From the NCBI GenBank assembly GCA_026418995.1, contig JAOAAG010000037.1, forward strand, positions 1-37,340: a stretch of 37,340 nt of DNA, read 5' to 3'. This stretch comes from Anaerolineae bacterium. Its GTDB lineage: Bacteria > Chloroflexota > Anaerolineae > B4-G1. Within the stretch, counting starts at the first letter, position 1, and the number at the start of each line of letters is the position of its first letter. Both the position numbers and the translations under genes were made by a program. Below are positions 8,820-36,511 of the stretch, in pieces. A model generated the notes under the pieces. It did no database searches. It saw only the letters and a list, made by a program, of their open reading frames with translations, and had not been told where the DNA came from.

Positions 8820-8851
8820 GCGATTGGAATAGCGTGCGAGGGTATCCTGCG

Positions 8852-20586: not shown

Positions 20587-23500
20587 ATGCCCGACGATTT
20601 TCTCTTCCGCGCTGACCTGGAAGACCTGGACCCCTTCATAGCTGACCTCATTCGCTGGGAGCAGGAGCGCCAGGCCCGTAAACTCATCCTCATCCCCTCC
20701 GAGTCCTACGCCCCCAGGGCCGTCCGGCAGGCGCTTGGCTCTGTGTTTCAGAATGTTTATGCCGAAGGCTACCCGCCTCTGAGGATGACCCGCGACCCTG
20801 AGGAGCGGCTGCGGGACGTGGCCTGGCAACTGGCCTTCTACCGCCGCTATGCCGACCGCCGTTTCTACAAAGGCGTGGACTATGTGCATCTGGTGGAGTG
20901 CCTGGCCCAGCGTCGCTGCGCTGCACTCTTTGCCCACGACGACGTCCGCCCGGAGCACATCTTTGTTAACGTCCAGCCCCTCTCCGGCGCCGCGGCCAAC
21001 CTGGCCATCTACCAGGCTCTCATGAGACCCGGCGATGTCCTGATGGGGATGGACCTCTTCCAGGGCGGCCACCTGACCCACGGCTCCGAGTTCAATATCT
21101 CCGGGAAATGGTACCGCCGGGTCTCCTATGGCGTAGACGCGAAGACTGAGCGGCTGGACTACGACGCCATCCGGGCGCTGGCCCGTCAACACCGGCCGCG
21201 CGTCATCGTCGCCGGATACACCTCCTACCCTTGGGCGCCCGACTGGCGTGCCTTTCGCGCCATCGCCGACGAGGTTGGAGCCTATCTCGTCGCCGACATC
21301 GCGCATACTGCCGGGATGGCCGCTGCCGGGGCCTATCCCAACCCTGTCGGCATCGCCCATGTTACCGTCTTTACCACCCACAAGACCATCTGCGGGCCGC
21401 GCGGTGCCTGCATCCTCACCACCGACGAGGCACTGGCTCAGGCGATCGATATGGCCGTCTTCCCCGGTGAGCAAGGCGGGCCGCATGTCAACAAGTTTGC
21501 GGCGATGGCCGTGGCTTTTGGACTGGCCCGGACAGAGCACTTCCGGCGGCTTCAGCACCAGATTGTTGCCAACGCCAGGGCCCTTGCAGAGGCCCTTCAG
21601 AAGCGTGGGCTTCGCCTGGCCTACGGCGGCACGGATACCCACTTGCTCGTGGTGGATCTGAAGTCGGTGAGCGACCGCGAGGGGGGCGACCGCAAGGGGG
21701 GCGACCGCGAGGGGGGCGACCGCAAGGGGGGCGACCGCAAGGGGGGCGACCGCAAGGGTCGCCCCTACGTCCTGTGGGGGGAACCGGCGGCCCGTATCCT
21801 GGACCTGGCTGGCATCGTTGTCAATAAGAACACCATCCCAGGGGACACCCAGACCGCATTAGCGACGGGCATCCGCATGGGCACCCCGTGGGTCACCCAG
21901 AGGGGGTTGAACGAGGAAGATATGGAGACCCTGGCAGACCTCATCGCCCGACTCCTGCGCGCCATCCGGCCCTTCGCCTATAACGGCCTGGTGGGCACGC
22001 TCCCGCGCGGAAAGGTGGAGCTGGACGTTCTGGAAGAGGTGCGGGCGGGAGTAGCGAAGCTGGCAGAAAAGGCCGGGATTGACTTTGCATACGCCCCCAC
22101 CGGCTACCCTCATTTCTACTCTTTCGGGCCTGCCGGGAAGAATACCGCCCTGCGCGTGACCGGCTGGCGGGCCCGGCAATTTATCCAGCAGGTGGTTACT
22201 GCCAACATCGCCGATCTGGAGGCGGGCCAGACCAGAGCCGCTCACATGCTGGATCGCCACGGCAGCCTCATCGCCAAGGTAGTCATCCAGCGGGAGACGC
22301 CCGACGAGTGGGGCCGGGACCGCTACCTTATCGTCCCCACAGCGAATGGCAGCCGTGTCGCTGCCTGGCTGCGCGCTCTCTCCGACGGTTACGTCCTCTT
22401 TGACGAAGCCGACATCTACCGCAAGATTGAAGGGCCGGTGGTGGTAGAGGAAGCCCCGGACATCCCCGCCCTCTCGCTCGTCGGAGACGCAGAACTAGAC
22501 CTCACCAAACCCTACTTCATCGGCCAGTCCGCCTTCACGGAACGCGCAACACGCAATACGCAATACCCTGAATGGCGCTGGGAGGAACGACAGTCCCCCA
22601 TCAAGCGCACCCCCCTCTACGAGACCCACAAGCGGCTAGGCGCGAAGATGGTCCCCTTCGCTGGGTGGGAAATGCCGGTCTGGTACACCTCCGTGGGAGA
22701 GGAACACCGCGCGGTGCGGGAGACGGCAGGCCTTTTTGACGTGGCCCACATGGGCGTCTTTGAGGTCGCTGGCCCCCATGCTACCGTCTTCCTGGACACC
22801 GTCTGCTCCAACTACGTCGCCTGGCTGGAGGACGGGCAGTCCCTCTACGGCTACCTCCTGGACCCCGACGGCAACGTGATAGATGATGTGATGATTTACC
22901 GCCGCCGGGCTGATCTCTACCTGATGGTGGTCAACGCCGCCAACGAGGAGAAGGACTGGGACTGGCTGAACGCGGTAAACGAGCAACGGGTGATGATTGA
23001 CCGAACCCGCCCGTGGGTGCGGGTGGAGGCGCAGGCGACCTTGCGCAACCTGAAGGATCCGTCAGCGGGGGAGTTGCAGCAGCGGGACCTGGCCCTGCAG
23101 GGCCCGGCGTCGCTCCCGACACTGCTGGCGCTGGCCGATGGAGACCGGTTCCGCACCGCACTGGCCCGTCTGCGCCGCACGGACCTGCTGGAGGGAGCCC
23201 TGGCGGGGATTCCCGTCGTCGTCGCCCGCACCGGCTACACCGGCGAGGAGTGGGGCTACGAGATCTTCGTCCACCCTGACCAGATGCCCACACTCTGGGA
23301 CAAAATTCTGGAGGCTGGAGAGCGGTACGGGGTCAAACCGGCAGGGCTGGGCGCGCGGGATTCCACCCGCACCGAGACGGGACTCCCCCTCTACGGCCAC
23401 GAACTGGCGGGCCCTTTCAACATCTCGCCGCTGGAGGCGGGCTTCGCCGGGTATGTCAAGTACCACAAGCCCTTCTTCATCGGACGGGACGCGCTCCTGG

Positions 23501-23844
23501 CCCAGGAGGAGACGAGGGAGCGGGAGGTGCTCCGCTTCCGCGTCGCCGAAAAGGGGGTCCGTCGCCCACAGACGGGCGACCCGGTGGTCAATCGCAGGGG
23601 GCAACTGATCGGCCATGTCACCAGTTGCTCCATTGACGCCGAAGGGTATCTGGTGGGGATGGCGATTGTGAAGCAGCAGTACCACGTGCCGGGAACCCAG
23701 ATTGCCATCTTCCCGCTGGGCGGGAAGTCGTTGGAGGAAGCGGCGGGGGCCGACCGGGCTGTCCTACCGGTGGAGGCGACGGTGCTCACCCGTTTCCGGG
23801 GGCGGGTAATGGAGGCTCAGGTCTTACGGACGGCGGAGGACTGA
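20587..23844 (+). CDS. glyA-gcvT: Bifunctional serine hydroxymethyltransferase / glycine cleavage T-protein fusion
   Basis: A 1085-residue fusion in one-carbon metabolism. Residues 1-490 are SHMT (serine plus THF to glycine plus methylene-THF): [15 protein letters not shown] and the PLP lysine Lys266 in [12 protein letters not shown] (most relatives have HKTLRGPRG). About 515-650 resembles a degenerate folate-binding GcvT/YgfZ N-domain ([20 protein letters not shown]). Residues 670-1085 are a complete aminomethyltransferase ([56 protein letters not shown]). Two repeat-derived insertions keep the frame: a GDRKG tract at about 361-394, in the loop after HLLVVDL, and RATRNTQY near 652-660 before the GcvT part. 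Fusion would couple glycine production and cleavage in the cytoplasm. Lipoyl GcvH and GcvP are not in the window. Confidence 0.95.
21671..21768 (+). repeat. GC-rich 15-bp tandem repeat ending in a palindrome, inside glyA
   Basis: Five tandem 15-bp units GCGACCGCRAGGGGG (R alternates between units) and a sixth that ends in GGTCGCCCCTAC. The last unit forms a perfect 9-bp hairpin, GGGGCGACC (21743-21751), loop GCAAG, GGTCGCCCC (21757-21765). Translation gives [11 protein letters not shown] repeats and then GRPY. Because the unit is 15 bp, the reading frame is kept. Confidence 0.92.
22544..22566 (+). repeat. RNTQY-type short repeat inside gcvT linker
   Basis: GCGCAACACGCAATACGC followed by AATAC, in frame and encoding RATRNTQY in the linker between the SHMT/GcvT-like part and the GcvT part. 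It is the reverse complement of the leader repeats at 16927 and 20386. Confidence 0.75.
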
Positions 23845-23851
23845 CTGTACG

Positions 23852-23891
23852 GCCGGACATGGCTGTGGTGGTGCTCCATCTGTCCGTCGGC
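23852..23891 (+). terminator. Possible weak terminator hairpin after glyA-gcvT
   Basis: GCCGGACATGG pairs imperfectly with CCATCTGTCCGTCGGC, just 7 nt after the stop codon. No T-tract follows. Beyond it, 23892-24105 shows nothing I can name. Confidence 0.3.
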
Positions 23892-24105
23892 TCAACCTAC
23901 GCATCCGCCCTATCTCGTCTTTCACTGTGACCACCGACATCTGGTCTCGGGGTACCTTATCTGACCGCGTTAGCGAAACAATGTTGCCCTCCACTGGGTC
24001 AAAGCCGTAGGGTGGTACACAAGTGCTATCGCCGACCCTTGTCTGATCCCGCATCCTTGCTTGCCGAGGAGACGGCGGTAGCAGTAAGGGTATCCCCCTG
24101 TTTTT

Positions 24106-24176
24106 TGCAAGCGTTCACAAAAGGTATTGACAAAAGCACAAAATCGTGGTAAAATCTTTATGCAAACGTTCACAAA
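24106..24176 (+). promoter_or_regulatory. LacI-type operator pair around a strong promoter (importer operon)
   Basis: Operator TGCAAGCGTTCACAAA (24106-24121), -35 TTGACA (24127-24132), a 17-nt spacer, -10 TAAAAT (24150-24155), operator TGCAAACGTTCACAAA (24161-24176). Operator centres are 55 bp apart, and the second covers the start point. The core AACGTT with a central CG is the LacI-family signature. The same layout stands before lacI at 35011. It drives the binding-protein gene through a leader of about 280 nt. Confidence 0.9.
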
Positions 24177-24212
24177 TAAGCCTGTAGCCAAAAGGGTAGG
24201 CTGTTTCCCCTC

Positions 24213-24226
24213 TGTGAGCGTTTTCC
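24213..24226 (+). promoter_or_regulatory. Degenerate LacI-type operator in leader
   Basis: TGTGAGCGTTTTCC matches the leader operator TGTGAACGTTTACA at 11 of 14 positions. Its centre is 52 bp from the preceding operator centre, close to five helical turns. Confidence 0.45.
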
Positions 24227-24233
24227 AGGCTTC

Positions 24234-24250
24234 TTCTGAAACTTTCAGAA
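24234..24250. promoter_or_regulatory. Perfect 17-bp palindrome in leader
   Basis: TTCTGAAA, C, TTTCAGAA: perfect 8-bp arms with a 1-base centre, unlike the LacI-type sites. Too tight for an RNA hairpin, so a dimeric DNA-binding protein site is more likely. Confidence 0.5.
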
Positions 24251-24299
24251 TAGCAGCATAGGTCCTCATTGTCCGTCATTTCGTTTAGGGCTCAAGATG

Positions 24300-24313
24300 T
24301 GTGAACGTTTACA
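24300..24313 (+). promoter_or_regulatory. LacI-type operator in leader (distal)
   Basis: TGTGAACGTTTACA, nearly palindromic, about 130 nt before the binding-protein ATG. Equivalent in role to the operator at 35177 before lacI. After it, 24314-24442 holds only the SD GGAGGGAGG. Confidence 0.8.
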
Positions 24314-24442
24314 TTCTAGGAAATGTGCTGAGATCTGTAGAGGAGGTGTCCTATTCGAGCCGGTGACTAGTGATTCCCCCAGCCTTAAGTGATGCGTCTT
24401 GCAACACCCTTTTGTAGCTTTCTGAAATTGGAGGGAGGAAAA

Positions 24443-25813
24443 ATGGAAGAGAAACGGTTAAGTCGTCGTGAGTTTTTGCGCTTAAGCGCATTGGCCGCGG
24501 CTGGTGCGGCGCTGGCAGGTTGTGCGCCTCAGACGCCTGCTGCAAAGCCGACTGAAGTGGTCAGCACAGCTCCCCCCACAGAGCCGACCCCGTTCCTGTT
24601 CTGGTTCCAGGCCGAGAATCACGAGCCTGAATACCGGACACGCGTTGAGGAGCTCAACGAGAAATTTAACATCAAATTCTCGTATGAGCTTATGTCGCGC
24701 GATGCGATGACTCAGAAATTCCCAGCGACTCTGATGGCTGGCAGTGGTTTTCCTGACATCATCGAGCAAAATGCTGATGATATCGTGAAGTTCCTGAAAG
24801 GTGATGACAGTGTTATTCCCTTTGTTGACTTAAAACCTGCGCTGAAGGCCAGCCCTTATGCAGACCAGGTGCTGATGAGCCGGTTTGACCGCTATAGCAA
24901 GGACGGGAAGTTTTACGGTGCACCCCATGACGTACACCCTGTCTTGATGCTTTATCACGAAAGAGCATGGCAGGAATACGGCTATGATCCCTCGACCTTC
25001 ACTACTTACGAGAAGTTCCTGCAGGCTGCCAAAGGCGTTGCTGCCAAGACCAATATGGAGATGCCAGATGGTCGGCCCCTGGGGGTCATCATGGACTGCT
25101 TGAGCTGCACCAACTTGCCGGCTCGCATGATGGACCTGGGGATCTGGTGGACGGACGCTGACGGTAATCCTATGTTAAAAACCCCAGAGTTCAGAGAGGC
25201 TGCCTCCAACTGGATGCTCTTCCGGGATTACTGGATGAACATTGATTGGGGCAACCAGGTGGCTATGCTCAAAGAGGGACAGGTACTGACGCAGTTCTGC
25301 CCTGACTGGCTGTATGGGATTCACTTCCAGGGTACTGCCAATGACAAGGAATGGCTGGCCAATTCTCCGATGCGAATGGCGATCCTGCCAGGCATGAAGG
25401 AAGACGCCCCACGCACTACATCTTGGGGTGGTACCAGTGCGTCGGTGCCCAAGCTATCCCCCATTAAGGAACTGGCGGTTGAGGTTCTGCTATACCTGTA
25501 CTTTGAAAATGGTGAGGGCCAGCTAGCTAAACGGTTTGTAGATACGGGGATTTTGCCGCCTGTGCCAGGATGCTGGGATGACCCTGTGTTCCACGAACCC
25601 AAAGAGTATCTTGGTGGGCAAATCGCCGGTGAGCTCTTCATTGAGGCGGCCAAACGTCTGCCCAGCTACTCGGAACAGTGGACGACACACCTGGTCACAG
25701 AGGCGTGGGGTGGCCAGTTTGCCTCCGCGTGGGCCGGGGAAATCACCCTCGATGAGGCCATTGAAGCCGCTTACGCGCAGGCTGTCGCAGACATCGAGAA
25801 GAACAAGTTTTGA
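24443..25813 (+). CDS. ABC sugar transporter substrate-binding lipoprotein (family 1)
   Basis: A 456-residue extracellular solute-binding protein that would capture oligosaccharides and hand them to the permeases. The ATG at 24443 follows GGAGGGAGG. Residues 1-30 combine a twin-arginine-like motif, SRREFLRL, with a lipobox LAGC, so it is exported folded and anchored as a lipoprotein. A T/P-rich linker follows (residues 30-50), then the bilobal domain with FPDIIEQNADDI and a Trp/Tyr-rich C-terminal lobe typical of sugar binders. It heads the operon controlled by the LacI-type operators. Base composition is visibly more A+T-rich than in the genes before 23844. Xylo-oligosaccharide is the likely ligand from context only. 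Confidence 0.93.
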   Translation: MEEKRLSRREFLRLSALAAAGAALAGCAPQTPAAKPTEVVSTAPPTEPTPFLFWFQAENHEPEYRTRVEELNEKFNIKFSYELMSRDAMTQKFPATLMAGSGFPDIIEQNADDIVKFLKGDDSVIPFVDLKPALKASPYADQVLMSRFDRYSKDGKFYGAPHDVHPVLMLYHERAWQEYGYDPSTFTTYEKFLQAAKGVAAKTNMEMPDGRPLGVIMDCLSCTNLPARMMDLGIWWTDADGNPMLKTPEFREAASNWMLFRDYWMNIDWGNQVAMLKEGQVLTQFCPDWLYGIHFQGTANDKEWLANSPMRMAILPGMKEDAPRTTSWGGTSASVPKLSPIKELAVEVLLYLYFENGEGQLAKRFVDTGILPPVPGCWDDPVFHEPKEYLGGQIAGELFIEAAKRLPSYSEQWTTHLVTEAWGGQFASAWAGEITLDEAIEAAYAQAVADIEKNKF

Positions 25814-25859
25814 TCCAACAACTACAGCCTGCCCCTATGATACGTGGCCTGGTGAATGT

Positions 25860-25889
25860 ACCGGGGGAGTGGGGAGTTGCTCCCCCGGT
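25860..25889 (+). other. Intercistronic hairpin between binding protein and permease
   Basis: ACCGGGGGAG, 10-nt loop, CTCCCCCGGT: a perfect 10-bp stem 46 nt after the stop. No clear T-tract follows (CACTTTATGT). Such hairpins in sugar ABC operons often stabilise the upstream message or act as partial terminators, giving more binding protein than permease. Confidence 0.75.
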
Positions 25890-26154
25890 CACTTTATGTA
25901 TAATGTCATTGGTATACCGATTCCGGCCGCATGGAGACATGACTCTATCGGTTAATGTTCAGTGAAGAGTTTGGTCCCCAGGAATATACCTCTGCTTTTC
26001 TTCCGTGTCCGGTGCCCAGCCAGTGTTTCGCATCTGCCCCGGTCGGTTATGCTGAGGCTTATCCTGTTCTCGTACGCTCATCGCCAACACCACTCCGTGT
26101 TGCCCCTGGCAGGGAAGGGGACCATTAAGGACTAGACACCTGAAGGAGGTTCAG
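25890..26154 (+). other. Non-coding spacer
   Basis: 265 bases between the hairpin and the first permease. I see no gene, operator or convincing promoter in it, only the SD AAGGAGG before ATG 26155. Confidence 0.6.
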
Positions 26155-27105
26155 ATGGCAAGTGTCGCTGTTGCACAGCCAGCGAAAAAGCGCTCTCCGA
26201 TTGTAGAGTTTATTTCTGATCAGACGAAGTGGACCCCCTATCTGTTTGTCGCACCGTTTTTCATCACCTTCGCGATTTTCACTCTCTACCCGATGTTACG
26301 TGCCGTGGTTATGGGATTCCAGGAGTCCCTGGGCTACTCTGGCAAATGGAACTGGGTGGGGCTGGCTAATTATGTTGAAGTGTTCACGAATGATCCGCGC
26401 ATAGTTACCGCGTTCAGAAACTTTATCTACTACACCCTGGGAAGCCTGGCCACCCAGTTGCCCTGCGCATTTTTCCTCGCTTTGCTACTGACCTCTCCTT
26501 CGCTCAGAGCAATGGGCTTATGGCGCACCCTGTTCTTTATTCCCGCCGTGCTGCCCGGCGTCACTATGGGAGTCGTTGGTCTCTGGTTCTTCAGCAAGAC
26601 TCATGGCTTTGCCAATGCGCTCGTCGTCGCCTTTGGAGGTGAGCGCATAGATTGGGGAGGTTTTACATACTACATTATGCCTCAACTGTTAACGATAGCC
26701 TTCTGGCAGTGGATGGGTTATCACGCCGTGTTCCTCATCGCGGGTATGAGCGGTATTGGTACCGAAGTCATTGAGGCGGCCATCATGGATGGGGCGACGG
26801 CCTGGCAGAGAGCGCGCTACATCATTTTACCGCTACTCAAACCGATCTTTGCCTATATTTCCATCACCGCGGCAGCAGGCTCGCTGATGAATTTCGATAT
26901 TCCGTACGTGCTCTTTGATGCAGGAGGAGGACCGCGTGGGCAAGGCTGGTTTTTTATGACCCATATCCGCGATATGGCGTTTGTGCAGTTTCGCATGGGT
27001 TATGCGACTGCCATCGGCTGGTTAGTCTTTTTCATCGCCGTCGTGATCACTGTTTTGCAGTTCCGCCTCTATAATTTCAGACTGGGAGAACAGGAGGTGG
27101 CCTGA
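26155..27105 (+). CDS. ABC sugar transporter permease (MalF/UgpA-like)
   Basis: A 316-residue inner-membrane permease with six predicted transmembrane segments (first at about 28-48, WTPYLFVAPFFITFAIFTLYP). The cytoplasmic EAA loop reads EVIEAAIMDGATAWQRARYIILPLLKP, the contact site for the ATPase. SD AAGGAGG lies 5-6 nt before the ATG. Its stop codon overlaps the next permease start by one base (TGATG), so the two are translated as a coupled pair and probably form the heterodimeric pore. No ATPase gene is near; a shared MsmK/UgpC-type ATPase elsewhere is likely. Confidence 0.95.
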   Translation: MASVAVAQPAKKRSPIVEFISDQTKWTPYLFVAPFFITFAIFTLYPMLRAVVMGFQESLGYSGKWNWVGLANYVEVFTNDPRIVTAFRNFIYYTLGSLATQLPCAFFLALLLTSPSLRAMGLWRTLFFIPAVLPGVTMGVVGLWFFSKTHGFANALVVAFGGERIDWGGFTYYIMPQLLTIAFWQWMGYHAVFLIAGMSGIGTEVIEAAIMDGATAWQRARYIILPLLKPIFAYISITAAAGSLMNFDIPYVLFDAGGGPRGQGWFFMTHIRDMAFVQFRMGYATAIGWLVFFIAVVITVLQFRLYNFRLGEQEVA

Positions 27106-28001
27106 TGACAACGCCAACCGTTATGCGTCCTGTGACTTCCAAATATGGACTCGGTATCCGGTCAAGAGTGCGTCCATTTCACTTGCGCTCCATCCTGGTT
27201 ACAGCCCTGACCATGATCTTGGCCCTGATCTTCATCTGGCCCTTTTTGTGTATGGTGGGTTGGACGTTTAACCAGATTGACGTGGTCATGAATCCACTGC
27301 TCCCAATTCCGGCCAAATTCAGCATGCAATTTTATCAATTGGTGTTCAGCGAGAAGTACCAGATGCACAGATATGCCCTCAACTCTATATTGGTAGCTGT
27401 GGCAACGATGATGCTGAGCACCTTCACGACCACACTGGCGGGCTATGCTTTTGCCAAACTGCGCTTTCCGGGCCGTGATCTCTTGTTCTCCATCATTATC
27501 GGGATTATGCTGCTGCCGACCACAACGATGCTGGTTCCACAGTTTGTGGTGATGAAAGAGTTGGGGCTGGTCAACAAATATTGGGGGCTGATTTTGCCCA
27601 GCGTCGGTGGTGGCGCTTTCGGCATTTTTATGATGCGCCAGTTTATGCTCAGTATCCCTACCGAGATGCTGGAAGCAGCGCGGATGGACGGCGCAAGCGA
27701 GTTTGACTTGTTTTTCAGAATTGTGGTGCCCAATGCTAGCGCTGGGATTGGGGTCATTGCGACCCTCTCACTGCGTGACAGTTGGAATGCCTTGTTGTGG
27801 CCGCAAATCATTATCAGTGATGTGAATAAACGCTTGCTGATGCCTGCGATCGTGACGTTGAACCAGATGCAGGTGGCCGATGTGTATGCACTGCCGGTCG
27901 TCCGCGCAGCGGCTATCCTGGCAGCACTGGTGCCCTTAGCCTTGTATGCTTACAGCCAGCGCTATTTCATCTCCACTCTAGCGGGAGCCATCAAGGGTTA
28001 G
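27105..28001 (+). CDS. ABC sugar transporter permease (MalG/UgpE-like)
   Basis: A 298-residue second permease. It has six transmembrane segments, with the first at about 28-50 (ILVTALTMILALIFIWPFLCMV) and the usual large outer loop after it. The EAA loop is EMLEAARMDGASEFDLFFRIVVPNASAG. The ATG at 27105 overlaps the preceding stop and uses the SD CAGGAGG inside that gene's end. A strong terminator follows 19 nt downstream, so the binding protein and two permeases form one transcription unit, with the enzymes probably reached by readthrough or by their own promoter. Confidence 0.95.
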   Translation: MTTPTVMRPVTSKYGLGIRSRVRPFHLRSILVTALTMILALIFIWPFLCMVGWTFNQIDVVMNPLLPIPAKFSMQFYQLVFSEKYQMHRYALNSILVAVATMMLSTFTTTLAGYAFAKLRFPGRDLLFSIIIGIMLLPTTTMLVPQFVVMKELGLVNKYWGLILPSVGGGAFGIFMMRQFMLSIPTEMLEAARMDGASEFDLFFRIVVPNASAGIGVIATLSLRDSWNALLWPQIIISDVNKRLLMPAIVTLNQMQVADVYALPVVRAAAILAALVPLALYAYSQRYFISTLAGAIKG

Positions 28002-28019
28002 GTTACTCTTCGAGCCTCG

Positions 28020-28052
28020 AAGGGATTAGGGAGACCTCCCTAATCCCTTTTT
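28020..28052 (+). terminator. Strong intrinsic terminator after the permeases
   Basis: Arms AAGGGATTAGGGAG and CTCCCTAATCCCTT, a 14-bp perfect stem around AC, running into TTTTT. A smaller overlapping hairpin, CTTCGAG-C-CTCGAAG, precedes it. The rest of the gap to 28190 shows only the SD AAGGAG, and no clear new promoter. Confidence 0.9.
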
Positions 28053-28190
28053 GTTTGGAGGTTGCCTCTAACCTGGGCGCGTGATGACTGTCATAGATGG
28101 CACGATGGTAGAACATTGCGAGAATGTCTGGTTCGTCTCTTAAGACTTGCAGTTTCCCGACGTATCTGTCCGACTTAAGGAGAGCTCGAT

Positions 28191-30773
28191 ATGGCACAAG
28201 CAGGTCTAGCTATCAACGATCAGGACTATTTCGAGATGCCCGGCTTGAACGTGCTGGTTTACCACAATACTTTCCTGGAGGGCCATCAGGGAGGCGTTGA
28301 GATCATCCAGCACGGAGAGCGGGTCGCAACAAATGGTGAGTTGCGTCTGAGCCCTGCGCCAGGACAATGGCAGCCGATACCCGAAATCGGCGGGGGCTTC
28401 CCATCTATCGGCGTGAGTCCCCGGCCGGTCACCCTTCAGTACCGAAAGGTGGACAGGGAGACCAACACCATTAGCATCAGATGCCGATATCCTGACAAAA
28501 GTCGGGATCGAAAAGGGTTCAACCCGATCATCTATCCCGACCTGCACATCGAGTATACGGTTCGGGTTCAGGCGGAGGGCTCATCGTTTACCATTACAGT
28601 AGATTTGGAAGAGCCGCTGCCTGAAGACTGGGTAGGTCGGGTCGGTTATAGCCTGGAACTCTTTCCCGGCGACCTGTATGGTAGAACCTACTACATGGAC
28701 GGACAACCGGGCATGTTCCCTCGCCAGGCCAACGGCCCGACGTACCTGAACCCCGAAGGCGAGGCCGAGGCGGTGCCGCTGGCTACAGGTCATACGCTGG
28801 TGGTTGCTCCAGAAACCGATCGCTTCCGCATGACCATCGAAAGCCAGGGCAGCCCGCTTCAGTTGCTGGATGGGAGTCTGAAGCACAATAACGGCTGGTT
28901 TGTGGTGCATTCGCTCGTTCCGGCAGGGGCCACGAAAAACGCCATCCAGTGGAAAATCACCCCCCACGTGATCCCCGACTGGAAGTATGAGCCGGTGATC
29001 CACGTTTCTCAAGTGGGCTACCATCCCCGGCAGAAAAAGGTGGCCTTTATCGAATTGGACAAGCGGGAAACGGTCATTCAGAAAGCAGGTCTCCAAAGAG
29101 TGAGCCCATCGGGCGAATATCAGACGGTGCTCGAAAAGCAACCCGAACTCTGGGGCCAATACCTGCGCTATAAATATGCCACGTTTGATTTCTCAGAAAT
29201 CGCCGAGCCGGGGATTTACGTGGTGAAATATGGCGACCTGCTCAGTCACCCGTTTCAGATTGACCGCAACGTGTACAAGCGTCACGTCTGGCAGCCGACG
29301 TTGGAGTATTTTCTGCCGATGCAAATGTGCCACATGCGGGTCAATCAGAAATACCGGGTCTGGCATGGCCTCTGCCATATGGACGACGCTTTAATGGCCC
29401 CCAGGAATATCAACCATTTTGACGGGTATGACACGATAAGGGCACAACCCACCTCATCTCCGTTCAAGCCGCTCGAGCACATCCCCGGTTTCAACGCTGG
29501 CGGCTGGCACGATGCTGGCGACGACGACATCCGCACAGATACGCAGGTCAGTACGGTGATGGCGCTGGCACATACGTATGAAGAGTTTAACGTCCAGTAT
29601 GATGAAACCTACATTGACCAGGAACATCATCACGTAGAAATTCACCAACCTGACGGCAAACCCGACATCCTCCAGCAGATTGAACACGGAGTGATCTGGA
29701 TTCTCAACTTCTATCGCCGATTTGGCGAACTGGGTGTGGGGGTCATTGTGCCTACTCTGCGGCAATATGTGCACTTGGGCGACCCATCCACTCAGACCGA
29801 TAACAAAGTCGTTGATGAGGCCGTTGCCCAATCGCGCGCCGCTCATATAGAGGGACTCTGGTACAAAAAGGTAGCGAATCGCTATTCCAGGATATTCGAC
29901 CCCGGAGAAAACCTGCATGAGATCGAGGAGGTTATCCCGGATTTGGATGACCGGCTGGTCTTTACGCAAACCAATCCGGCCCGGCAATTGTTTGTGGCAG
30001 CCGGGCTGGCGCTGGCGGCCAGAGTGCTCAAGGGCTACAACGACGCGCTGGCAGATGAGTGCCTGAACGTGGCAGAGTCTCTCTGGGCAGCCCATAAACA
30101 CATCACTGACAGGGAGATGGTCATCGTCCACGCCTATGGGTATCGCGGCAGTGTCGAAAGTCTGAAGATCCATGTCCTGGCTGAATTGATCCTCACCACA
30201 GGGAAGGAAGAGTATAAACAGGAGCTTTGTCGTATGGGAGCGGTGGTAGAGGAGCACTTTGGTAGCTCAGGCTGGGCGCTGGGGCGCGTATTGCCGCTGC
30301 TCGACTGTCCCGAATTCCTGCAAAAAGTCACCGCTGCCGCCCGTGCTTACGCAGCCGAACTGGAACAACGCATGCGCGAAAACCCGTTTGGTTGCCCTCT
30401 AGTTCATACGGAAATTGTGGGATTGAGGCAGTATTTCCTCTACAGAGGCTGGCCCGAAATATTTACAGCCGAACCCCTATTCTCTGCGATGAACTATCTC
30501 TTGGGCTGCCGCCCTGGCAAAACGACCAATAGCCTGGTGTCTGGGGTAGGAGGCAACTCCCCGGTGGTTGCGTATGGCTTCAATCGCGCCGACTGGAGCT
30601 ACATTCCCGGAGGAACCTTCTGGAATGCGATGAATCTGGTATTCCCCGATTTGCCGGAAGATAAAGTCTGGCCCTTTTTATGGCAGGAACGAGAGTACAT
30701 CACCGACGCGGCTTGTATGTTCATGTTCATGGTGATCGCCGCAGACAGGCTCTTGGAAGAACAAACGCAATAG
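28191..30773 (+). CDS. GH9-like glycoside hydrolase with N-terminal beta domains, non-canonical acid motif
   Basis: An 860-residue protein without signal peptide, hence cytoplasmic. Residues 1-275 are an unfamiliar beta-rich domain. About 285-370 is the CelD_N-type Ig domain (VIHVSQVGYHPRQKKVAFIE), and about 380-855 an (alpha/alpha)6 catalytic domain with the base motif GGWHDAGDDD (Asp441, Asp444). Classical GH9 enzymes end with a Y-x-T-N-E motif whose Glu is the proton donor. Here the region reads WQEREYITDAAC (831-842), so the expected Glu position is Ala840 and the donor may be Glu833 or Glu835. Start supported by AAGGAG 8 nt upstream. It begins the enzyme block and may trim imported oligosaccharides. 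Substrate is uncertain; cellulase annotation should be avoided. Confidence 0.82.
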   Translation: MAQAGLAINDQDYFEMPGLNVLVYHNTFLEGHQGGVEIIQHGERVATNGELRLSPAPGQWQPIPEIGGGFPSIGVSPRPVTLQYRKVDRETNTISIRCRYPDKSRDRKGFNPIIYPDLHIEYTVRVQAEGSSFTITVDLEEPLPEDWVGRVGYSLELFPGDLYGRTYYMDGQPGMFPRQANGPTYLNPEGEAEAVPLATGHTLVVAPETDRFRMTIESQGSPLQLLDGSLKHNNGWFVVHSLVPAGATKNAIQWKITPHVIPDWKYEPVIHVSQVGYHPRQKKVAFIELDKRETVIQKAGLQRVSPSGEYQTVLEKQPELWGQYLRYKYATFDFSEIAEPGIYVVKYGDLLSHPFQIDRNVYKRHVWQPTLEYFLPMQMCHMRVNQKYRVWHGLCHMDDALMAPRNINHFDGYDTIRAQPTSSPFKPLEHIPGFNAGGWHDAGDDDIRTDTQVSTVMALAHTYEEFNVQYDETYIDQEHHHVEIHQPDGKPDILQQIEHGVIWILNFYRRFGELGVGVIVPTLRQYVHLGDPSTQTDNKVVDEAVAQSRAAHIEGLWYKKVANRYSRIFDPGENLHEIEEVIPDLDDRLVFTQTNPARQLFVAAGLALAARVLKGYNDALADECLNVAESLWAAHKHITDREMVIVHAYGYRGSVESLKIHVLAELILTTGKEEYKQELCRMGAVVEEHFGSSGWALGRVLPLLDCPEFLQKVTAAARAYAAELEQRMRENPFGCPLVHTEIVGLRQYFLYRGWPEIFTAEPLFSAMNYLLGCRPGKTTNSLVSGVGGNSPVVAYGFNRADWSYIPGGTFWNAMNLVFPDLPEDKVWPFLWQEREYITDAACMFMFMVIAADRLLEEQTQ

Positions 30774-30790
30774 GAGATAGGAGAAAGAAC

Positions 30791-31615
30791 ATGCTTGCTC
30801 ACTGGACACAAGATGATTTACTCGTCAACGGCGTGCGGCTGCATTACTATCGCACCGGTCACGGGGACAAACGCCCCATGGTATTGATTCACGGCTTTTC
30901 GGACAACGGCCTATGCTGGACGCCGGTCGCGCGCGCCCTCGAAGCCGACTATGACGTGATTATGCCGGATATGCGCGGCCATGGCCTTTCGGCGCGCGTG
31001 CAGCCGGGTGAAGCCGTGGACATGGCCGCCGATGTAGCCGAGCTCATCCGCACTCTGGGGTTGAGTCGCCCGATTGTAGGCGGACACTCGATGGGGGCAG
31101 CGGTCGCCTACCAACTGACCGTGCGTTTCCCGGAGCTGGTCAGCGCCCTGTTCCTGGAAGACCCGGGCTGGTGGCTCACCCGGCCGGCCCCACCTCCGCC
31201 TGACGAGAACCCCATAGCGAAATGGGTCAAGAGCCTGTCCACCCAGACGTTGGAAGAATTGCTGGTGCAATACCGCAAGGATCACCCCACCTGGCCCGAA
31301 GAGTTGTTGCAGCCAATGTGTGAGTCCAAGAAACAACTCGATCCCATGATCTTTGATGTGGTGAGCGCCGGAATGCACTCCGAGGAGTGGAGTTGGCGAA
31401 CGACCCTTCAGAACGTTACCCAACCCATCTTGCTCTTCACCGGCAACCCGGAGTTGGGGGGAATCGTGACGCCGGAGGTCGTCGCAAAAGTGCGCGAGTT
31501 GAACCCCGGCGTCACCATCGTCACCATCCCCGATGTGGGCCATCTCATCCGTTTTGACAAATACCCGGCCTTCATGGAGGCCTTATGGGCATTCTTGAAG
31601 CAATTGCCGGCTTGA
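30791..31615 (+). CDS. Alpha/beta-fold hydrolase
   Basis: A 274-residue serine hydrolase of the alpha/beta fold, cytoplasmic. The ATG at 30791 was chosen because AGGAG lies 8 nt upstream; a longer frame would overlap GH9. It shows the oxyanion motif LIHGFSDNG, the nucleophile elbow GGHSMG (Ser100), a cap of about 60 residues containing TRPAPPPPDENP, and the catalytic His in DVGHLIRF near the end. The locus suggests an esterase that removes acyl groups from xylo-oligosaccharides, but the family also covers lactonases and C-C hydrolases. It lies 17 nt after GH9 and 10 nt before GH39, in one operon. Confidence 0.88.
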   Translation: MLAHWTQDDLLVNGVRLHYYRTGHGDKRPMVLIHGFSDNGLCWTPVARALEADYDVIMPDMRGHGLSARVQPGEAVDMAADVAELIRTLGLSRPIVGGHSMGAAVAYQLTVRFPELVSALFLEDPGWWLTRPAPPPPDENPIAKWVKSLSTQTLEELLVQYRKDHPTWPEELLQPMCESKKQLDPMIFDVVSAGMHSEEWSWRTTLQNVTQPILLFTGNPELGGIVTPEVVAKVRELNPGVTIVTIPDVGHLIRFDKYPAFMEALWAFLKQLPA

Positions 31616-31625
31616 GGTGATGACG

Positions 31626-33158
31626 ATGAACATCAACGTCCATCTGCAACAACCCGGACAGCCCATTGTCCACCACTGGCGCGTGTGCGTCGGCGGCGGG
31701 CGGGTGGCCGAAGCCCTACGTGCCGACTTTCAAAAGCACCTGGAAATGGTCCAACGCGAGATGCCCTTTCAATACATCCGTATGCACGGCCTGTTCCACG
31801 AGGATATGATGGTCTACCGTGAAGAAAATGGCCGGCCGATCGTCAACTGGCAATATGTGGACCTGGTCTACGACCACTGGCTTTCCATTGGCATCCGGCC
31901 ATTCGTGGAATTGAGCTTCATGCCCTACGATCTTGCCAGCGGCGAGGAGACCGTTTTCTGGTGGAAAGGAAATATCACCCCGCCGAAGGATTGGGAACGC
32001 TGGGAATGGTTCATCGAACAGTTCATCCGCCACGTCATCGAACGCTACGGGTTGGATGAGGTGCGGCGCTGGTATTTCGAGGTGTGGAACGAACCGAGCC
32101 TGGATATTTTCTGGAAAGACGCCGATTTTGAGGCCTATATGGAACTCTACGCGCGCACCGCGCGCACGCTCAAGCGCGTGGATCCGCACCTGCGGGTCGG
32201 CGGCCCGGCCAGCCACGGGTTTGGCGACGCTGTGGGCGAGCCGCCGTGGGGCAAAGAATTCCTGGCCGCGTGTGCCGAACGCCAACTACCGCTTGATTTC
32301 TTCTCCACGCATCCTTATCCTACCTTCTACCCGGTTGACCCGGAAGGCCATGGCTACATGACCTGGGATGGCCCAGACCGCCTGTTGAAGGATGCGCTGG
32401 GCTGTGACCAACTCTTGCGTGCCTCGGCTTATCCCCACATCGAACGCCATTACACCGAATGGAGTTCCAGCCCCAGTCCGCGCGATCCCGTGCACGATAC
32501 CGCCTTTGAGGCTGCGTTCATCGTGGACAACAACTGGCGGGCGCGTGGCCTGATGGATTCGCTGTCATTTTGGACGGTCAGCGACATTTTTGAGGAATGC
32601 CGAGTGGGAGATACTCCCTTTCACGGCGGTTTTGGACTGGTCAACATCCAGGGCCTGAAAAAGCCCTCGTATCACGGGTACTGGTTCCTGTCGCGCCTGG
32701 GCGAGGAGGCGCTGGCTGAAGGTGATGGCTACGCCGTCACCCGACGCCGCGACGGCACCCTGGCGATCTTGCTGTGGAACTATTGCCACTATCGCGACGA
32801 CGCTAACGACAGCCGTCTGATGGCTGCCGCGAAACCGGGCGAAATCTACGACCTGTTTGATGTGCGACCTCCTCGCAAGTTCACGGTGCACCTGGAGGGC
32901 GTGGGAGCATCTGTCCGCGTGCAGACGACGCGCTTCGATCGGGAACACGGCAGCGTGTACGATGCCTGGGTGGCCATGGGGGCGCCGCAGCACATCCTCC
33001 CCGCCGATCTGGAGGTGTTGCGCCGTCGCATGGAGCTGGACGTTACCGTGCAGCGCGTTACCACGCCAGCACATACACTCGAGTGGACTGTCACAGTGCA
33101 GCCCTTTGGGGTGACCTTGCTCGAGATTAGACCGGAGTATACCAACACAGGAGGTTAG
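31626..33158 (+). CDS. GH39 beta-xylosidase-like enzyme
   Basis: A 510-residue retaining glycosidase of family GH39, which includes beta-xylosidases and alpha-iduronidases. Acid/base Glu156 is in FEVWNEPSLDIFW and nucleophile Glu278 in YTEWSS; both positions agree closely with characterised bacterial XynB enzymes. TIM barrel at 1-340, then a beta-sandwich accessory domain. No signal peptide, so it acts on imported xylo-oligosaccharides. The ATG at 31626 was preferred to GTG 31617 or ATG 31620 because GAGGTG lies 6 nt before it. It sits between the esterase-like gene and the xylanase, 2 nt from the latter's start. Confidence 0.93.
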   Translation: MNINVHLQQPGQPIVHHWRVCVGGGRVAEALRADFQKHLEMVQREMPFQYIRMHGLFHEDMMVYREENGRPIVNWQYVDLVYDHWLSIGIRPFVELSFMPYDLASGEETVFWWKGNITPPKDWERWEWFIEQFIRHVIERYGLDEVRRWYFEVWNEPSLDIFWKDADFEAYMELYARTARTLKRVDPHLRVGGPASHGFGDAVGEPPWGKEFLAACAERQLPLDFFSTHPYPTFYPVDPEGHGYMTWDGPDRLLKDALGCDQLLRASAYPHIERHYTEWSSSPSPRDPVHDTAFEAAFIVDNNWRARGLMDSLSFWTVSDIFEECRVGDTPFHGGFGLVNIQGLKKPSYHGYWFLSRLGEEALAEGDGYAVTRRRDGTLAILLWNYCHYRDDANDSRLMAAAKPGEIYDLFDVRPPRKFTVHLEGVGASVRVQTTRFDREHGSVYDAWVAMGAPQHILPADLEVLRRRMELDVTVQRVTTPAHTLEWTVTVQPFGVTLLEIRPEYTNTGG

Positions 33159-33160
33159 GA

Positions 33161-34894
33161 ATGCTCAAGAGGTTGTTTACCAAAAAAATCTGGCTCGCCG
33201 TCGTTACCGCGTTTGTGGTGATTGCGGTTATCGCTGGACTCTTGCTCCGGTCTAAACCACAGCCCGAGGTGGCCGCAACGGTGGCGCCTACCCAAGTCAG
33301 TACGCTGGAGCCCACCCAAGTCAGCACGCCGGAGCCTACCAGAGTCAATACCCCAGAGCCATCGGCGACCCCCAGGCCGACCGAGGCGCCCGAGGTGCTC
33401 AAAGAATATGATTTCGAAGATGGCACGACACAAGGCTGGATGCCGCGCGGCGAGGCATCAGTCAGCGTGGCTACCGACGTCGCCCACTCGGGCTCCTACA
33501 GCCTTCTGGCGACAGACCGCAAGGCAGGGTGGCAGGGCGCAACCGTGGACGTAGCGGGATTGCTGGAGCCAGACTGCACGTACGAAATCGGTGGGTACGT
33601 GCGGCTGGCCGAGGGAGAGCCGGCCAGCAGGGTGGTCATCACTATGCAGCGCACTCCGGTGGGTGGAGAGACCAAATATGAGTGGATTGCGCCCAGCGCA
33701 GAAAAAGGTGTGACCGATGCCGAGTGGGTCTATCTGAAAGGGCGGTACTCTTACAGCGGCGAGGTCTCCGAGTTGTTGCTGTACGTAGAGAGCCCTGACG
33801 CCACATTGGTTGATTTCTACATTGACGACATCACCATCACACGCCTGTCAGGGTGTACGTCAAGGCCCTCGGTCCAGACCGACATACCCTCGGTGTATGA
33901 GACGTTGTCTCCCTACTTCTCTTGGGTTGGTGCGGCGATCGAGCCGGACATGCTCGACAAGGAGCAGCACACTCTCCTGCTGACCCGTCACTTTAACAGC
34001 ATCACGCCCGAGAATGCGATGAAGCCTGGCGTGATCCAGCCATCTGAGGGGGAATTCAGATGGGCAGGCGCCGACAGGCTGGTTCAGTACGCCAGGGAAC
34101 ATGGCATGGCGGTTCATGGCCATACCCTGGTGTGGCATCAGCAGGTCGGAGAGTGGATGTTTGAAGATAGCGAGGGCAACCCCCTGGAGGCAACGCCGGA
34201 GAACAAGGAACTGGTGCTGCAGCGCCTGGAGACCCACATCCGCGCGGTCGTCGGCCGCTACAGGGACGATGTCCAGATCTGGGATGTGGTCAACGAGGTG
34301 ATCGATCCGGGTAATTCGGACTGCATGCGCCGGAGCAGATGGTACGACCTCACTGGTATGGACTATATCGTGACGGCTTTCCGGGTAGCAGATGAGGTGG
34401 CGCCGGACGCTGTGTTGCTCATCAACGACTATAGTACCACAGAGCCGCGGAAGCGCGCCTGTCTATACAACCTGGTGCGCGATCTGCGCGCGCAAGGCGT
34501 GCCCATTGATGGCGTGGGCCACCAGATGCACATCAACATTGCAAGTCCGTCTGCGGAGGTCATCGAGGAGACGATCCTGATGTTTGCGGAGCTTGGCATA
34601 GAGCAGCACATCACCGAGTTTGATATGAGCATCTACGCCAACGATACGGAATCGTACACGGTTGTGCCGGAGAGAATCCTGATCAGGCAAGGCAAGCGCT
34701 ACAAAGCGGTGTTCGACGTCTTCAAGCGCCAGGCTGAGCACATCCAATCGGTGACGTTTTGGGGCTTGGCCGACGATCACACGTGGCTCAAGACCTTCCC
34801 TGTCGCGCGGCTCGACTTGCCGCTGCTCTTTGACGAGCAACTACAGGCCAAGCCTGCCTACTGGGGCGTCGTTGATCCGACGAAACTACCGTAG
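33161..34894 (+). CDS. Membrane-anchored CBM-GH10 endo-1,4-beta-xylanase
   Basis: A 577-residue endoxylanase. Residues 8-30 are an uncleaved-looking signal anchor, without a clear signal-peptidase site. About 36-78 is a Thr/Pro linker of 8-residue repeats, and about 80-232 a CBM22/CBM4_9-type carbohydrate-binding module (YDFEDGTTQGWMPRG ... VDFYIDDITI). GH10 fills 240-577: WHQQVG, acid/base Glu379 in WDVVNEVID and nucleophile Glu486 in ITEFDMS. AGGAGG is 6 nt before the ATG. It would cut xylan at the cell surface and feed the importer. The gene closes the enzyme operon; no clear terminator follows before the lacI promoter module. Its CBM is closely related to both modules of the truncated gene at 36512. 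Confidence 0.96.
   Translation: MLKRLFTKKIWLAVVTAFVVIAVIAGLLLRSKPQPEVAATVAPTQVSTLEPTQVSTPEPTRVNTPEPSATPRPTEAPEVLKEYDFEDGTTQGWMPRGEASVSVATDVAHSGSYSLLATDRKAGWQGATVDVAGLLEPDCTYEIGGYVRLAEGEPASRVVITMQRTPVGGETKYEWIAPSAEKGVTDAEWVYLKGRYSYSGEVSELLLYVESPDATLVDFYIDDITITRLSGCTSRPSVQTDIPSVYETLSPYFSWVGAAIEPDMLDKEQHTLLLTRHFNSITPENAMKPGVIQPSEGEFRWAGADRLVQYAREHGMAVHGHTLVWHQQVGEWMFEDSEGNPLEATPENKELVLQRLETHIRAVVGRYRDDVQIWDVVNEVIDPGNSDCMRRSRWYDLTGMDYIVTAFRVADEVAPDAVLLINDYSTTEPRKRACLYNLVRDLRAQGVPIDGVGHQMHINIASPSAEVIEETILMFAELGIEQHITEFDMSIYANDTESYTVVPERILIRQGKRYKAVFDVFKRQAEHIQSVTFWGLADDHTWLKTFPVARLDLPLLFDEQLQAKPAYWGVVDPTKLP
33287..33358 (+). repeat. 24-bp tandem repeat in xylanase linker
   Basis: Three 24-bp units encoding PTQVSTLE, PTQVSTPE and PTRVNTPE. 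They form the stalk that spaces the CBM from the membrane; such units vary in number between strains. Confidence 0.85.
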
Positions 34895-35010
34895 TTGTCA
34901 CATAGTGCGGACTGGCAAGGCTTTCTTCCTCATTCATTCCCAAGTGAGCCAACCATTGCAGCGAGATGATTTTCATCGCTGGCGTGTGGTTTGTGCTTCT
35001 TCCTGGTGTG

Positions 35011-35081
35011 TGCAAACGTTCACAAAACTCTTGACAAAAGCTCCATAATGTGGTAATATTGTAAATGCAAGCGTTCACAAA
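35011..35081 (+). promoter_or_regulatory. LacI-type operator pair around the lacI promoter
   Basis: Operator TGCAAACGTTCACAAA (35011-35026), -35 TTGACA (35031-35036), a 17-nt spacer, -10 TAATAT (35054-35059), operator TGCAAGCGTTCACAAA (35066-35081). Operator centres are 55 bp apart, exactly as at 24106-24176, with the two operator variants swapped in order. This makes lacI self-controlled. The remainder of 34895-35209 shows nothing else except the operator at 35177. Confidence 0.92.
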
Positions 35082-35176
35082 CGCGCCGCAATGCGAATGC
35101 AATCCCCTCATATGTGAGCATCCGCCCACTAAATCCTGTAGAAATAGCCTTCGGTTCACTGCTGGATACAGATAAA

Positions 35177-35190
35177 TGTGACCGTTCACA
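35177..35190 (+). promoter_or_regulatory. LacI-type operator before lacI start
   Basis: TGTGACCGTTCACA, with flanks AAA and TTT extending the palindrome, 19 bp before the GTG of lacI. Binding here would block elongation or overlap initiation. Confidence 0.85.
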
Positions 35191-35209
35191 TTTTTGAAGA
35201 AGGCTGCCT

Positions 35210-36256
35210 GTGACGAAAAAAACATCCGGTAACGTGACCATAGTGGATGTCGCGCGCGAAGCCGGCGTCTCCTATACCACGGTGTCCCGCGTGCTCAACA
35301 ACAAGGAGAACGTCAAGCCGGAAACGCGAGAGCGCGTCCTGACGGCAATGACACGCCTCGGTTACGTGGTGGATCAGCGAGCACGTAGCCTGGCGGGGGG
35401 ACATTCTCAGGTTATTGGCTTGCTGGTCCACGACCTGGGCACTAGCTACATTGGGTTAATCATCCGGGGCATCGAAGCGGAGCTAGCTCCAGCCCAATAT
35501 GATCTCCTGCTCTATACCACCCATCGGCGTAAGACAAAAGAATCTGTATACGTCGCTACGCTCACGCGAGGTCTGGCAGATGGCCTGCTGATCGTCTTGC
35601 CGCGTAATCCGGGCGCTTATTTAGAGACGCTACGTGTGTCTAACTTCCCCTATGTACTCATTGACCACCGTGGTGTTAGTGAGGAGATCTCAGCAGTGAC
35701 GGCTGCTAACTGGCAGGGAGGCTACACCGCCACCGAGTATCTGATCAAGCTAGGCCATCGGCGTATCGGTCACATCACAGGCTCTATGGATCAGGGATGT
35801 GCCCGCGATCGGTTGGAAGGCTATAAGGCTGCATTAGCGGACCATGGGATTCCCTTCGACCCGGAACTGGTGCAGGAGGGTGACTTTTTTCAGCCTGCTG
35901 GTTACAACGGTACCCGCGCATTACTGAATTTACCCGACCCTCCCACTGCCATCTTTGCTGCCAACGATGTGATGGCCTTCGGCGCAATGGAAGCCATACG
36001 TGAGTGCAACCTGCGTATCCCCGAGGATGTCTCGGTGATGGGTTTCGACGATATCCCCGAAGCCTCCAGAGTCCATCCTCCACTCACCACCATACAACAG
36101 CCATTGGAAGAAATGGGACGTCTTGCGACGCGCATGCTGCTGGAACGCCTGAGGGATCCTGCAATTGGCCCCCGGCGTGTCGAGTTGCCGACCAGGCTGA
36201 TTGTTCGTCAATCCTGCCAGCCGCCCGGCCGAGGCAATGCTCAGGCTGGTGGTTAA
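35210..36256 (+). CDS. LacI-family transcriptional regulator of the xylan locus
   Basis: A 348-residue repressor. Residues 9-30 form the helix-turn-helix (VTIVDVAREAGVSYTTVSRVLN), about 52-60 the hinge helix (ARSLAGGHS), and 65-335 the periplasmic-binding-like sugar domain with IFAANDVMAFGA and VMGFDDIP. The GTG at 35210 starts the HTH in the usual place; the SD AGAAGG is about 7 nt away. It most likely binds the TGCAARCGTTCACAAA-type operators before itself and before the importer, and a weaker one before the next gene. The effector is likely an imported xylo-oligosaccharide or xylose; that is inference from the neighbourhood. Confidence 0.95.
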   Translation: MTKKTSGNVTIVDVAREAGVSYTTVSRVLNNKENVKPETRERVLTAMTRLGYVVDQRARSLAGGHSQVIGLLVHDLGTSYIGLIIRGIEAELAPAQYDLLLYTTHRRKTKESVYVATLTRGLADGLLIVLPRNPGAYLETLRVSNFPYVLIDHRGVSEEISAVTAANWQGGYTATEYLIKLGHRRIGHITGSMDQGCARDRLEGYKAALADHGIPFDPELVQEGDFFQPAGYNGTRALLNLPDPPTAIFAANDVMAFGAMEAIRECNLRIPEDVSVMGFDDIPEASRVHPPLTTIQQPLEEMGRLATRMLLERLRDPAIGPRRVELPTRLIVRQSCQPPGRGNAQAGG

Positions 36257-36317
36257 GCTTCGTCGCGGGAAAGCGTACTGACTGTAGTAATCCGCAACAT
36301 ATACCAGCTAGTAACCC

Positions 36318-36330
36318 AGAAGGAGGTGAT
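36318..36330 (+). promoter_or_regulatory. Orphan Shine-Dalgarno-like sequence in leader
   Basis: AGAAGGAGGTGAT is almost the full complement of the 16S rRNA 3' end, yet no ATG, GTG or TTG lies at a proper distance. A CTG 3 nt beyond the motif opens a frame of about 30 codons. Leader peptide, standby ribosome site or chance. Confidence 0.35.
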
Positions 36331-36343
36331 ACTGGGGGAGGAA

Positions 36344-36359
36344 CGCAAGCGTTTTCAAA
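36344..36359 (+). promoter_or_regulatory. LacI-type operator before secreted CBM gene
   Basis: CGCAAGCGTTTTCAAA matches TGCAAGCGTTCACAAA at 13 of 16 positions. It lies in the 255-bp leader (36257-36511) after lacI. I see no convincing promoter beside it, so this gene may be read from the lacI promoter with the operator as roadblock. Confidence 0.65.
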
Positions 36360-36511
36360 AAATAATTGGCCAGCTTCTGAACGGTATAAAGAACTGTCCT
36401 TGCCCCCCGTCTGCCGGTGCGGATTAGCAGCTCAGCACCACCTCAATTGGGCAAGTGATGACGTGCCTAGTTCCGCTATCACCGTAATTTAGCGTACGAG
36501 GAGGAAAGAAA

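Follow-up and report, generated by a model that had tools for sequence, protein, structure and literature searches.

A LacI-family regulator in an Anaerolineae genome and the probable copying of its promoter array to a nearby importer operon

Two genes of an Anaerolineae bacterium, one coding for the substrate-binding protein of an ABC importer and the other for a LacI-family regulator, are preceded by promoters of the same design, which raises the question of what this arrangement controls and how it came to be present twice. The window, by which we mean the whole stretch of 37,340 nucleotides that was analysed (contig JAOAAG010000037.1, assembly GCA_026418995.1), contains six LacI-type operators (TGYRARCGTTCACA), found by direct reading and pattern search. 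The components of the two arrays are as follows.

24106–24119, plus strand: importer array operator O1, upstream of the -35 (reading and pattern search)
24127–24132, plus strand: importer promoter -35, TTGACA (sigma-70 promoter scan)
24150–24155, plus strand: importer promoter -10, TAAAAT, preceded by TG (sigma-70 promoter scan)
24161–24174, plus strand: importer array operator O2, expected over the transcription start (reading and pattern search)
24213–24226, plus strand: decayed importer operator O3, with an intact counterpart in G385 (comparison with G385)
24300–24313, best match on the minus strand: importer leader operator O4 (pattern search)
35011–35024, plus strand: lacI array operator O1 (reading and pattern search)
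35031–35036, plus strand: lacI promoter -35, TTGACA (sigma-70 promoter scan)
35054–35059, plus strand: lacI promoter -10, TAATAT, preceded by TG (sigma-70 promoter scan)
35066–35079, plus strand: lacI array operator O2 (reading and pattern search)
35113–35126, plus strand: decayed operator O3 in the lacI leader (comparison with G385)
35177–35190, plus strand: lacI leader operator O4 (pattern search)

The order is the same in each array: O1, TTGACA, 17 nt, TG with the -10, O2, and the leader operator O4. An earlier note on this DNA had described twin operator-promoter-operator modules with 17-nt spacers, O1 and O2 centres 55 bp apart in both, the operator variants TGCAAGCG and TGCAAACG exchanged between O1 and O2 of the two arrays, and a further operator in each leader (24300 and 35177); direct reading, the pattern search and the promoter scan recover all of these, and add one decayed operator per leader (24213 and 35113) that had been overlooked. 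With up to three mismatches allowed the operator pattern gives 13 strand-hits in the window, compared with 0.95 ± 0.97 in 100 shuffles (maximum 4). The importer and lacI promoters are the best two of ten sigma-70-like matches in the region 23840–36400, at 11/12 and 10/12, where shuffles average 6.5 matches. No Rfam match to an RNA element was found in the window, leaders included.

The reach of the operator was examined in the whole assembly (3,848,697 bases in 418 contigs, 96% complete). At no more than one mismatch there are eight strand-hits, every one of them from the six window sites, and the reversed-pattern control gives five; the near-exact sites are thus confined to these six, and the predicted regulon is a local one of two promoters within one 11-kb stretch, not the wider regulon that the motif had been expected to define. 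A looser palindrome scan (up to three mismatches) yields 87 forward hits, merely double the 46 of its control, so that specificity is limited to near-exact sites. In G385, a genome of the same family and a sister genus, 6/6 exact sites likewise fall in its two arrays.

The genes around the arrays, and the hairpin that follows the permeases, are listed here.

24443–25813, plus strand: ABC importer substrate-binding lipoprotein, PF13416 (domain search)
26155–27105, plus strand: importer permease 1, PF00528 (domain search)
27105–28001, plus strand: importer permease 2, PF00528 (domain search)
28019–28050, plus strand: strong terminator-like hairpin of 14 pairs, 3' of the permeases (hairpin scan)
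28191–30773, plus strand: GH9 glycoside hydrolase (domain search)
31617–33158, plus strand: GH39 glycoside hydrolase (domain search)
33161–34894, plus strand: GH10 xylanase with CBM4/9 (domain search)
35210–36256, plus strand: LacI-family regulator, 348 aa, PF00356 and PF13377 (domain search)

The regulator carries the LacI helix-turn-helix (PF00356, E 4e-19) and a periplasmic-binding-like sugar domain (PF13377, E 4e-46), and near its own gene lies an even, CG-centred palindromic operator that is conserved in orthologs; all of these place it in the LacI family. It stays below the NCBIfam equivalog cut-offs for CcpA (197 of 442 bits), PurR (241.5 of 501) and RbsR (262 of 382), and the proteins of solved structure closest to it in sequence are PurR and CcpA.

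The operator is a property of the clade to which this regulator belongs. Among 298 genomes of the class, the clade comprises about 20 LacI genes that are 53–67% identical to the window LacI, the next matches falling to 46%. A matrix built from the window sites only, and therefore a non-circular test, finds operators near lacI in 17/19 ortholog loci (L048–L066). A broadened matrix, partly circular because several of the loci scanned had contributed sites to it, finds them within 420 bp upstream of lacI in 18/20 larger ortholog loci, with 38 of its 46 hits inside that zone (about two expected from shuffles) and no operator in L093 and L096; the more distant LacI genes have such sites in 2/10 cases, one of which, L067, shares the hinge residues. 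In many orthologs an operator lies immediately after the -10, and leader operators recur across several of them. When 396 genomes of the class were scanned for operator-TTGACA-operator, 11 places in nine genomes matched, and none matched the reversed control; nine of the 11 belong to the window LacI clade, and the other two (G241, G350) are at LacI genes 34–37% identical. As to the form of the sites, nearly every operator, taking all six in the window together with O1 and O2 of G385, joins a TGTGA half to a TGCAA or TGTAA half, with O1 and O2 sharing half-site orientation in the window and in G385, and many orthologs have symmetric TGCAA or TGTAA sites.

How the array came to stand before two genes is best seen in G385, which has one array at the importer binding-protein ortholog (C78) and one at lacI (C336). 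Four operators match in order between them, the third being the one present as a relic in both window leaders, and the two arrays are 72% identical (135/187). Behind the importer array is a decayed, frameshifted start of lacI of about 48 codons, identical to the C336 lacI at 104/140 bases (local score 119, with no shuffle above 39), which runs on into the importer's own leader. This relic indicates that the lacI promoter was copied together with the gene start, and it would be hard to explain by any other origin; the draft genomes are fragmented and G385 has 6% contamination, and the relic is too strongly diverged from the existing copies to be an assembly mix-up of them. The word 'duplicated', as applied to the window modules in the earlier note, is therefore probably literal, and the two are probably true duplicates. 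A third G385 lacI (C345; L124 2967–3605), 83% identical to the window's, has no recognisable upstream operators.

For the window's own importer array we infer the same origin. Its promoter spacer matches that of lacI at 12/17 positions, its non-operator core is similar both to the lacI promoter (z 4.6) and to the older promoter that the importer has in G360 (z 3.5), and the O2–O4 leaders of importer and lacI are alike to a degree equalled in 5/500 shuffles. The kinship of the core to both promoters suggests that the window importer promoter may be a mosaic. Array identity is 65% and 72% within genomes and 54–58% between genomes, which would fit either two copyings or a single one with later gene conversion. 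The alternative that the two arrays are independent and converged on good operator positions draws on the bracketed promoters at the two non-orthologous LacI genes of G241 and G350, on the likeness of the window core to the older importer promoter, and on the importer leader of the window, in which no lacI coding relic was found (score 19 against a shuffle mean of 18.75); set against the relic in G385 and the matches of spacer and core in the window, we regard it as unlikely.

Copying of the lacI promoter also offers an account of the distribution of repressors at this importer. Among 48 genomes of the order the importer is present in six and a window-type LacI at high identity in six, and only G000 and G385 have both; these two have the array at the importer. 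No array stands at the importers of G360, G219, G324 and G398, which have instead sites of the type TTGTGA-N4-TCACA (that of G398, TGTGATGCATCACA, read by eye, lies beside the promoter, and one in G219 is barely at the broadened-matrix threshold of 14.0). Each of these four genomes also has a 65–100% ortholog of another LacI, which adjoins the importer in G360, G324 and G398 and is on a separate contig in G219; no ortholog of it was found in G000 and G385 (best matches 40 and 41%). From this reciprocal distribution of two LacIs and their sites the importer apparently changed its repressor by promoter capture, a swap that is suggestive at two genomes versus four. The copied piece would have reached from O1 into lacI coding sequence and come to lie before an importer formerly under the different LacI, which was later lost. 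That the importer captured the whole autoregulated array with the gene start, that the old LacI was lost, and that the arrays have since evolved in concert is the sequence of events we somewhat favour, and the G385 relic would then apparently be a fossil of the capture step.

Taken as a whole, we give a probability of roughly three in four to a local, autoregulated LacI repressor of xylan-sugar uptake whose importer array was copied from the lacI promoter. The regulator very probably represses its own gene and the nearby importer through the same site arrangement; binding, repression and inducer are predictions from the DNA and its relatives. Lacking inducer (most likely xylo-oligosaccharide or xylose), LacI dimers would occupy O1, next to the -35 of a strong sigma-70 promoter, and O2, next to its start region, and would thereby exclude polymerase, with the leader operator O4 as an additional roadblock; inducer would free both promoters.

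Looping by LacI and GalR in E. coli also involves several operators around one promoter, and the earlier note had proposed that a loop or cooperative binding, with helical phase fixed, is at work here. Applied to the window, LacI at O1, O2 and O4 would bridge the sites and the 55-bp spacing would be set by helical phase, for which the two or three operators per promoter, the identical spacing in both window arrays and the recurrent leader operators of several orthologs could speak. However, in nine homologous arrays (near-identical G234 and G254 counted once, and the non-orthologous 53-bp array of G241 excluded) the O1–O2 spacings are 52, 53, 55, 55, 56, 57, 60, 62 and 62 bp, with a Rayleigh R of 0.27 and p about 0.5 at 10.5 bp per turn, and the distances from O2 to the last operator (n=9) are 83–167 bp with R 0.02; a fixed phase is rejected on this 52–62 bp spread over all phases, and the phase-conserved spacing of a tetrameric, looping LacI is not seen. 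That both window arrays have 55 bp is accounted for by shared origin and identical promoter geometry. The protein ends 12 residues past the PurR-like core with the tail QPPGRGNAQAGG, which has no leucines and in which the C-terminal leucine-heptad helix of tetrameric LacI is absent, so that a Lac-type tetramer is unlikely. The window system thus differs from E. coli LacI and GalR both in this tail and in spacing that is not phase-locked among relatives, and looping appears improbable; autoregulation together with steric repression by dimers is the better fit, and two dimers, one at each promoter end, would explain the design with no loop.

Halves of the form TGTGA...TCACA resemble the sites of several regulator families and the genome has seven LacI genes, either of which might suggest that the sites serve a CRP-like protein or one of the other LacI paralogs instead. 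This is highly improbable, as the sites travel with the window LacI clade, none were found upstream of the genome's six other LacI genes, and their even, CG-centred form is typical of LacI sites in the available portion of a survey of LacI regulons (PMC4052901).

The inducer assigned to this local LacI repressor derives from other loci, since the usual importer of the clade differs from that in the window. Elsewhere the clade heads xylose or xylo-oligosaccharide operons: at 20 ortholog loci, some of which end at contig edges, there are GH8 genes at nine, xylA at seven, xylB at four and GH43 at three, and this linkage to xylose catabolic genes, as at least one of the four, is present at 12/20. 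The ortholog xylA and xylB products exceed the NCBIfam curated cut-offs, an importer binding protein (distinct from that of the window) is encoded at 15/20 loci, and the same operon type occurs in three further members of the order. No hit to xylA or xylB was found in the window, though GH10 and GH39 are present. The xylose genes at ortholog loci make xylo-oligosaccharide or xylose the likely inducer class. Comparison with relatives in this way supports two parts of the earlier note, the assignment of the operators at both genes to this LacI and the connection to xylan sugars.

Much of this resembles local LacI sugar regulons as described by Ravcheev et al. 2014 (PMC4052901), in the portion of that survey available, where autoregulation is given for 72% of studied regulators and more than one site for about 20% of operons: an even CG-centred palindrome, a local regulon, autoregulation and multiple sites. 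Site pairs there have spacing peaks at 13, 22 and 32 bp, whereas those of the window clade are 52–62 bp apart around the promoter, and the window has, unlike the regulons so described, a second promoter that seems to descend from that of the regulator gene. In Anaerocellum bescii, XynR (PMC12285236), as described in the accessible part of that report, is likewise of the LacI family, acts on xylan genes and has a core site resembling that of the window (GTAAACGCTTAC at XDL); the likeness is by description, and XynR controls several loci in contrast to the two promoters of the window LacI. We recognised no description of the window system in the accessible portions of literature on LacI regulons, Chloroflexi xylan control, promoter duplication and flanking operators. 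The control circuit is an ordinary LacI one; the promoter capture is unexpected, and fairly well documented by these comparisons. The locus would provide a compact natural example of regulon growth in which a regulator's promoter is copied to a second operon, and thus not solely through point mutations that create new operators, together with a precisely defined operator and a xylan-responsive promoter that can be tested, for a little-studied group.

Several further features of the window are noted. Long terminator-like hairpins are located at 25860–25889, after the binding protein, and at 28019–28050, after the permeases (nine such hairpins in the region, with 10.1 expected); these two may lower expression stepwise along the importer operon and make control of the GH9, GH39 and GH10 genes by the importer promoter less certain. 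The importer leader contains an AGGAGGT box (24335–24400), kept in L108, L125, L126 and L136, about 100 nt upstream of the real start codon. The large protein at 8732–11275 (about 808–847 aa), which we presume to be GH94-like, has no NCBIfam match, and a 41% relative is encoded near the lacI ortholog in L081. Upstream of the importer array, at 20587–23844, a single open frame of 1085 aa fuses serine hydroxymethyltransferase and glycine-cleavage T protein, with a low-complexity repeat within its first half.
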